Of a stretch of 64,000 nt of DNA, positions 6,646-8,406 are shown one piece after another. The translations under genes and the position numbers were made by a program. Positions within the stretch are counted from its first letter, which is position 1, and every line of letters starts with the position of its first letter. Source of the DNA: Nitrososphaerota archaeon (GTDB lineage: Archaea > Thermoproteota > Nitrososphaeria > Nitrososphaerales > Nitrosopumilaceae); contig JACQCT010000014.1 of NCBI GenBank assembly GCA_016201435.1, forward strand, positions 248,001 through 312,000, read 5' to 3'. The notes below the pieces were generated by a model. That model saw nothing but the letters and a program-made list of their open reading frames with translations, did no database searches and was not told the origin of the DNA.

Positions 6646-7161
6646 TTATGGTTTTTGCAACTTTGGTTTTAGTTTATCATTGGCTTTGAGCAGTTGCAAT
6701 GCGATAGATTTGTTGTTCAATGCAAGATCGTATTTTTTGTCAATTTTTAATGCGTCATTAAAGCACTTTATTGCTTGTTTTAACAATCCAAGCTCACCTA
6801 GTGCCAATCCCTTGTATGCAATTGCCATGGCATATTTAGAATCAATCTTTAGTGCCATATTATAGCAGTCAACTGCATCGTGATATTTCTCTATGCTGTG
6901 TAGGGCTGATCCTTTGTTGACAAGTGTGGTTTTATTTGCAGGATCTATTTGCAGCACCTTATCATAACATTTTATTGCCTGTCGGTATTTCTCAAGATTT
7001 TGTAGTGTAACGCCTTTGTCAATTAGAGCCATCAGATTTTTTGGATCCTTAAAGAGAACAAGATCATAGTATTCAAGGGCCAGAGTATATTCACCCTCCT
7101 GACAGAGATCATATGCTTCCTCTAAAAGTGACTTTGAATCATCCAACTTGGTTACTAACAA
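6646..7161 (-). CDS. TPR repeat protein
   Basis: tandem 34-aa repeats (YxxALxxYDxxLxxDPxN). Confidence 0.85.
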   Translation of the reverse strand: MLVTKLDDSKSLLEEAYDLCQEGEYTLALEYYDLVLFKDPKNLMALIDKGVTLQNLEKYRQAIKCYDKVLQIDPANKTTLVNKGSALHSIEKYHDAVDCYNMALKIDSKYAMAIAYKGLALGELGLLKQAIKCFNDALKIDKKYDLALNNKSIALQLLKANDKLKPKLQKP

Positions 7162-7475: not shown

Positions 7476-7712
7476 TTATGAGTTTGATTTTTCTAAACAT
7501 CGTTGCATAAAAGTAAACTCTGCTTTTTTTAGTCTAGAAGAATCAGCAACATCTAGACTCATGTCAATCAAATCAGTCAGCTGCATTCCTGGAACCAATT
7601 CGTCTTCTTTTTGCTGATTTAGCTCATACTCTATATTGGAAAGGATATCCACGTTATCATCTAGTATTTTCAGGCACTCGTCAAGACATATTCCTAAATC
7701 TTCATTTTCCAA
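7476..7712 (-). CDS. hypothetical acidic protein
   Basis: 78-aa ORF. Confidence 0.5.
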   Translation of the reverse strand: MENEDLGICLDECLKILDDNVDILSNIEYELNQQKEDELVPGMQLTDLIDMSLDVADSSRLKKAEFTFMQRCLEKSNS

Positions 7713-7939
7713 TTATGAACAATTTGTTAACGGCATTTCCTTTTTTAAATTCATGTATTTGATTCAAAAGACATTAGAAGAAACCAGGTGAAATGATCAT
7801 ATGTAAGGAGCATAAAATTTCCTGTTTTTCTAGAATAATTTAGAAAAAAACTAGTGTAAATCATTTTTTAAATGTAATAATAATGATATTATGTTAAATA
7901 GTTGTAATTCCTATAATATGTAATGCTCGTTCAGTGCAG

Positions 7940-8052
7940 AATGATGGATTGAACATGCGTGACCCTTCAGAAGCCATTAAGTGAATGACGTGCATTGGCA
8001 CTAATTCAGCGGGAAGTAATCTCCCAAGTTCTGAGAAGAGGGTCACGCCAAT
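7940..8052 (+). ncRNA. candidate structured non-coding RNA (strand uncertain)
   Basis: 9-bp stem GCGTGACCC(7957-7965)/GGGTCACGC(8040-8048) enclosing TCAGAA/TTCTGA and two hairpins; TATA-like TATAATAT near 7914 and T-rich tract after 8048. Confidence 0.45.
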
Positions 8053-8406
8053 TTATTTTCGCCACATCTTTTCCCACGTCTCAGCAAATTTCGTCATCAT
8101 CTCGCCGTATGTTTTAAGCTGATCCATTCCTGACTGGTCCATTGATTTTTGCCAATTCTCGCCAAATTGTTTGAATGCATTTAAACCAGATTTGTTCATT
8201 GCATTTTTCCAACTATCAAGAAACTGGTTCATGGTACTTTGACTTGATTCATGGAGTGCTTTTTCCATCACTTCATTGTATTTTGTCTGAATGTCTTTAC
8301 CTGCTTTCTGTAATGATTGAAATGATACTCTCCATTTTTCTAGTGCTGCGGTATATTCATTCCATAACTTGGTCCAATTTTTTGTAGACTTTTCATTTTT
8401 AGACAT
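8053..8406 (-). CDS. phasin-/PhaE-like helical protein
   Basis: amphipathic Trp-rich helices (KLWNEYTAALEKWRVSFQSLQKA...); similarity by eye only. Confidence 0.5.
   Translation of the reverse strand: MSKNEKSTKNWTKLWNEYTAALEKWRVSFQSLQKAGKDIQTKYNEVMEKALHESSQSTMNQFLDSWKNAMNKSGLNAFKQFGENWQKSMDQSGMDQLKTYGEMMTKFAETWEKMWRK

Follow-up and report, generated by a model that had tools for sequence, protein, structure and literature searches.

SgrS and RNAIII of bacteria are dual-function small RNAs. In trp-type attenuators, a short leader-peptide ORF lies directly upstream of helices that a ribosome can disturb, and a T-rich end follows. Among archaea, Haloferax has small RNAs that show ribosome occupancy and no evidence of coding (PMC12482152), and the TACK archaeon S. 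solfataricus has mainly leaderless mRNAs (PMC11698992). Tan1 is an abundant 229-nt non-coding RNA of marine Euryarchaeota, and the available text of its report gives its role as unknown (PMC5069720).

Here we describe a candidate RNA gene that resembles each of these systems in part. It is like the dual-function and ribosome-associated small RNAs of Haloferax volcanii (PMC12482152) and of bacteria (SgrS, RNAIII) in that they are small, standalone and structured, with a short ORF or ribosome engagement. Unlike theirs, its ORF is predicted to be leaderless, has a fixed length of nine codons and lies directly before the closing stem; the peptide is not conserved, and the ORF is kept across a whole family. 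With trp-type attenuators it shares a short ORF before helices and a T-rich end, but it mostly has no co-directional downstream gene and no common codon run. Tan1 is likewise a lineage-limited archaeal non-coding RNA with a proposed fold and a role given as unknown; however, it belongs to another phylum, is longer and was found from transcripts, and a mini-ORF is not mentioned in the available text of its report (PMC5069720). On balance, we lean towards reading the new element as a standalone structured small RNA that the ribosome engages through a leaderless mini-ORF.

The element lies in a window of 64,000 nucleotides, the whole stretch of DNA that was analysed, from a Nitrososphaerota archaeon of the family Nitrosopumilaceae. 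The original prediction had begun the element at position 7940. By comparison with homologs, the candidate gene spans about 7923-8059 on the + strand and is longer than that box, which omitted a 5' hairpin and the mini-ORF. A TATA-like box had been placed at about 7914; the conserved one lies further upstream. The features are as follows.

7894-7900, + strand: TATA box TTAAATA of the RNA gene, from the TATA-like box found at a fixed distance in homologs
7923-7952, + strand: nine-codon mini-ORF, predicted leaderless, ATGCTCGTTCAGTGCAGAATGATGGATTGA, reading MLVQCRMMD with stop TGA, from comparison of homologs
7929-7954, + strand: 5' hairpin P0, 7929-7935 with 7948-7954, within and across the end of the mini-ORF, from the fold
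7957-7965, + strand: 5' strand of P1, GCGTGACCC, partner 8040-8048, from sequence, fold and homologs
7967-7972, + strand: 5' strand of P2, TCAGAA, partner 8029-8034, from sequence, fold and homologs
7982-8008, + strand: hairpin P3, TGAAT 7982-7986 with ATTCA 8004-8008 and GTGC 7990-7993 with GCAC 7998-8001, from sequence, fold and homologs
8011-8025, + strand: hairpin P4, GGGA 8011-8014 with TCCC 8022-8025, from homologs and alignment
8029-8034, + strand: 3' strand of P2, TTCTGA, from sequence and fold
8040-8048, + strand: 3' strand of P1, GGGTCACGC, from sequence and fold
8052-8059, + strand: T-rich tract, likely transcript end, overlapping the 3' end of the convergent gene, from T content in homologs
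8053-8406, - strand: convergent neighbour outside the RNA gene, a 117-aa helical phasin-like protein, from ORF and family search

All four helices P1-P4 that had been read from the window sequence are present, and they are the same helices that make up the unconstrained minimum-free-energy fold (-40.8 kcal/mol, z = -3.96, equalled by none of 200 shuffles). The minus strand reaches the same z of -3.96, so the strand cannot be read from folding energy alone. Across 82 distinct homologs, 95.7% of the cells are paired and 18 of the 26 pairs have changed on both sides, so the check for covariation that accompanied the original prediction returned strong compensatory change. None of 500 shuffles reached any of the pairing or covariation measures, and sliding the partner by 1-3 columns left pairing at only 32-52%. 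An earlier homolog set gave a similar result for pairing and covariation. The alignment was fitted to the model and thus favours the structure, yet the changes are visible in the raw sequences. For example, in a copy with 74% identity, UCAGAA/UUCUGA has become GCAGAA/UUCUGC and GUGC/GCAC has become GCGC/GCGC.

The helices differ in how they are kept. In the same 82 homologs, P1 is paired in 99.2% of cells and P2 in 98.2%, with double changes in five of its six pairs. P3 shows double changes in all eight scored pairs and differs in length among genera. P4 (95.9% paired) is the best conserved hairpin of the RNA family, and relatives often read GAGAGG-AAA-UCUCUC there. These data indicate that the element folds as a conserved structured RNA, far beyond chance.

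The description of the element as an undescribed structured RNA was supported by this covariation and by the lack of an Rfam match: at the gathering threshold, no Rfam 15 family matched the element in the window or at 20 homologous loci. No family reached its cut-off anywhere in the window. Scans by E-value gave chance-level matches only (best in the window 14.9 bits against a cut-off of 41), and a permissive scan of 7800-8100 gave one chance-level match. We found no description of the element in the literature searched, which largely excluded subscription journals; novelty is judged against that literature and Rfam 15. Nitrosopumilus and Cenarchaeum are absent from the main text of a 2010 survey of 104 candidate RNAs (PMC2864571).

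Known classes of RNA were rejected one after another. ARAGORN found no tRNA or tmRNA gene in the window, and no 3' CCA is conserved in a 59-sequence alignment (A7), in which the RNA ends in CGCC and a T-rich tract. Inspection of the same alignment showed that the C box (RUGAUGA), the D box (CUGA) and a 3' ACA box are not conserved, which we take against a C/D-box or H/ACA guide. The element matches neither archaeal RNase P RNA (RF00373) nor SRP RNA (RF01857), so a divergent form of either was rejected as well. These two are, like the element, family-wide structured archaeal RNA genes, but they are separate genes: true copies lie elsewhere, with RNase P RNA in 7/7 and SRP RNA in 6/7 of the genomes tested. 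In the genome of the window, a draft assembly, RNase P RNA is encoded on another contig, and no match to SRP RNA was obtained.

We searched for relatives of the element at several depths. Searched at the DNA level, 61 related genomes yielded near copies in three members of the window's genus and, in another genus, the 74%-identical copy, whose neighbours differ and whose pairs are kept by double changes. A first covariance model, built from five sequences, matched 202 of the 251 genomes of the window's family. A second model drew on 45 sequences; it recognised 128 of 301 genomes from the order, and among the matches listed all were within that family. In a sample of the phylum, the covariance model matched 44/44 Nitrosopumilaceae genomes, with 1-4 copies each, and 0/256 others. 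The covariance models found nothing in a few genera that are small or divergent. Among 85,462 named species genomes, a pattern scan picked out 99 stretches; the record titles among the 80 listed name Nitrosopumilus, Nitrosarchaeum, Nitrosotenuis, Nitrosotalea, Nitrosopelagicus, Nitrosopumilaceae, Thaumarchaeota and similar, with one 'uncultured archaeon'. As recognised by these models, the RNA is found throughout Nitrosopumilaceae and is kept in nearly all of them.

For one match (L160, JAICOU010000007.1), the record title is Nitrososphaeraceae, the name of a different family within the order. This match scores the same as two Nitrosarchaeum copies (L137, L148), and the record is therefore likely misnamed or mis-binned.

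The window's own genome carries a second, weaker copy (G000:C28:55983-56091, L084:1501-1609; 51 bits) with the nine-codon ORF MQKDTKSTA. An SDR gene and a GtrA-like gene lie upstream of it, and a convergent 139-aa gene and a TFB-like gene follow, an arrangement common to other genera; SDR, GtrA and TFB were named here from sequence, without a family search. A repeat or mobile element was rejected, as there are only two convincing copies in this genome and homologs are often syntenic.

When longer stretches were folded and aligned, a conserved ATG came to light some 33 nt ahead of P1, with a stop in the same frame shortly before P1. This mini-ORF occurs in 102 of 105 distinct homologs, with nine codons in 96 and eight in five. 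In 98 of the 102, 6-8 nt separate the beginning of its stop from P1; the spacer between stop and P1 varies by single nucleotides, and the ORF length is constant. In 91 of the 105 homologs, the TATA box precedes the start by 27-29 nt. For ordinary genes, 400 kb of a related complete genome gave 30 TTAAATA boxes with a candidate start no more than 70 nt away; the spacing peaks at 28-29 nt, seen in 12 of the 30. This spacing and that of the homologs may differ by one nucleotide, as the homolog search accepted TAAATA too. Because the spacing in the homologs equals that of ordinary genes to within about a nucleotide, we predict a leaderless transcript with its 5' end at or adjoining 7923. The comparative evidence speaks strongly for translation of the mini-ORF, and we infer that it is probably translated.

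The 5' part could instead consist of P0 only, with AUG and the stop-like triplets kept for reasons of RNA structure or promoter function. This purely non-coding reading draws on the stability of the hairpin itself in most homologs (90 distinct 5' ends give a mean z of -2.43). It is also helped by the peptides, which are not conserved and whose third codon positions are no freer than the others. In a Nitrosotalea-type set, P0 is paired in 89.5% of cells, with weak compensatory support. However, the register of P0 shifts among clades, whereas the length of the ORF is fixed. The start is only ever ATG (89) or GTG (13), and the stop only TAA (47), TGA (39) or TAG (16), never TGG, among the 102 homologs. 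A tree of the P1-P4 part, with the ORF left out, implies at least 19 switches from one stop to another. That none of 70 distinct ORFs has TGG would come about by chance with a probability of about 0.001, a figure without correction for relatedness. Frame 0 is open in 70/70 distinct nine-codon ORFs, which was a condition of the search, and the two remaining frames are open in 21% and 76%; allowing for relatedness (10 clusters), the chance is about 0.003. Frame openness alone is weak to modest evidence for the ORF. A start-to-TATA spacing equal to that of ordinary genes also speaks against a 5' part that is hairpin only.

The ORF is also kept at loci outside the model set. Eight of nine such loci, from genera g2, g6, g9, g11 and g15, have an ORF of 8-9 codons, and in these eight the stop falls at the same model position with a TATA-like box 27-28 nt ahead. 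Their peptides read MSVNPSSID (G005), MPVNSKND (G009), MAMIVISID (G018, G035), MPMIVTPIN and MPIVPTVD (G074), VHKDKSPFG (G012) and MSLVTKLND (G170). The single failure (L221, G170:C1:696149-696256) is a 25-bit match to a paralog in decay, with its helices broken and its mini-ORF cut short by a premature stop. Elsewhere, copies without an intact standard ORF are L082 (start lost), L138 (stop lost), L046 (frame shifted) and L079 (diverged). Taken with the P0 register and the codon identities, these loci leave the purely non-coding reading rather unlikely in our judgement.

If the nine-residue product itself mattered, as a signal, as a sensor or by acting on the ribosome, P1-P4 would be a structured 3' UTR and terminator. 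Themes specific to clades (MRKDANPID, MPMDIISID, MLVKPQKMA) fit such a gene. Against it, the 70 distinct ORFs encode 63 different peptides and show no synonymous bias; changes are about equal over the codon positions, on bases that P0 constrains as well, and selection on the peptide left no sign in these 70 ORFs. The RNA structure, by contrast, is conserved throughout. We consider a peptide gene improbable.

A TATA-like box lies 62-64 nt before P1 in 80 of the 105 distinct homologs. A scan for sigma-70 promoters, a class that does not apply to archaea, gave chance-level matches only. Archaeal terminators are T-rich. The T-rich tract noted after the element in the original prediction is borne out at 8052-8059 and across homologs, where T makes up 0.60 of the first 10 nt past the model match and about 0.29-0.38 of what follows. 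Comparative evidence gives a structured RNA with its own promoter, as expected of a dual-function small RNA.

The neighbours of the RNA differ among homologs. The 117-aa protein of 8053-8406 has no Pfam or NCBIfam match above cut-off. Other homologs lie beside a protein of 139-174 aa, often near a CdvB-like or TFB-like gene, or beside superoxide dismutase or CorA genes. The CdvB-like gene at one locus (L066) matches NCBIfam CdvB1/B2 at E = 8e-45, below the family cut-off, and solved CdvB2 at E = 4e-33. In the window, 6646-7161 on the minus strand encodes a 171-aa protein of tetratricopeptide repeats (TPR_1, E = 4e-25). In genus g21 (L038-L040), a superoxide dismutase gene follows the RNA in the same direction after 34-36 nt, and in genus g17 (L051, L062, L063, L064) a gene for the Mg2+ transporter CorA follows it after 80-103 nt. 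At L056, L118 and L145, the RNA lies 30-38 nt upstream of a co-directional 250-aa gene.

These co-directional placements are what a cis-regulatory leader would predict, either a riboswitch or an attenuator with a leader peptide acting on the downstream gene. However, the next downstream gene is convergent in 77 of 99 homologs, and in 55 of the 99 it ends within 15 nt of the RNA; the co-directional genes are also mutually unrelated. Convergent next genes and differing neighbours argue for a standalone RNA and not a riboswitch. A leader is thus refuted as the general role and very improbable as an account of the element, while a clade-specific cis role is possible beside superoxide dismutase or CorA, in clades where a co-directional gene begins 30-103 nt after the RNA.

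An element of the minus strand, whether a 3' UTR structure of the convergent gene 8053-8406 or another RNA of that strand, can point to the minus-strand fold and to the RNA abutting the stop codon of that gene, but it is scarcely credible given + strand wobbles (52 G-U/U-G against 12 A-C/C-A), a promoter and T-rich end oriented on +, and homologs beside superoxide dismutase that have no adjoining minus-strand gene. The wobble counts place the RNA on the + strand. Together with the + strand promoter and the differing neighbours, they also dispose of two alternatives offered at the outset, a 3' element of 8053-8406 and a minus-strand leader of 7476-7712.

We return to the standalone RNA engaged by the ribosome. 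Transcription from its own TATA promoter would yield a leaderless RNA of some 135 nt with the start codon at its very front. A ribosome would bind the extreme 5' end, read nine codons and stop 4 nt before the GC-rich P1, which closes the conserved P2-P3-P4 domain. The footprint of a ribosome is about 30 nt, so the mini-ORF would hold one ribosome. Its passage would melt P0, and its leading edge would reach into P1. The state of translation could then decide whether P1 is open or closed, whether the molecule is stable or degraded, and whether the domain is available to a putative partner that binds P2-P4. Since the peptide is free while the start, stop, length and position of the ORF are fixed, ribosome engagement, and not the peptide, is most likely the function.

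As a tentative proposal, which we hold to be possible and no better than that, the element may represent a family-wide class of RNA. Here, the ribosome reading a leaderless mini-ORF of fixed length and neutral sequence would be the switch or licence of a structured domain, and the output would be neither a peptide nor a downstream gene.

In the sea and in soil, few ammonia oxidisers are as abundant as Nitrosopumilaceae. A putative RNA gene that nearly all of them carry and that is absent from Rfam 15 points to a sizeable gap in annotation. With the covariance model and copies in cultured species such as Nitrosotalea devanaterra, direct comparison with existing RNA-seq is possible. With a predicted leaderless frame fixed at nine codons and a peptide free to vary, it becomes a testable question whether ribosome occupancy alone can control a structured RNA in archaea.
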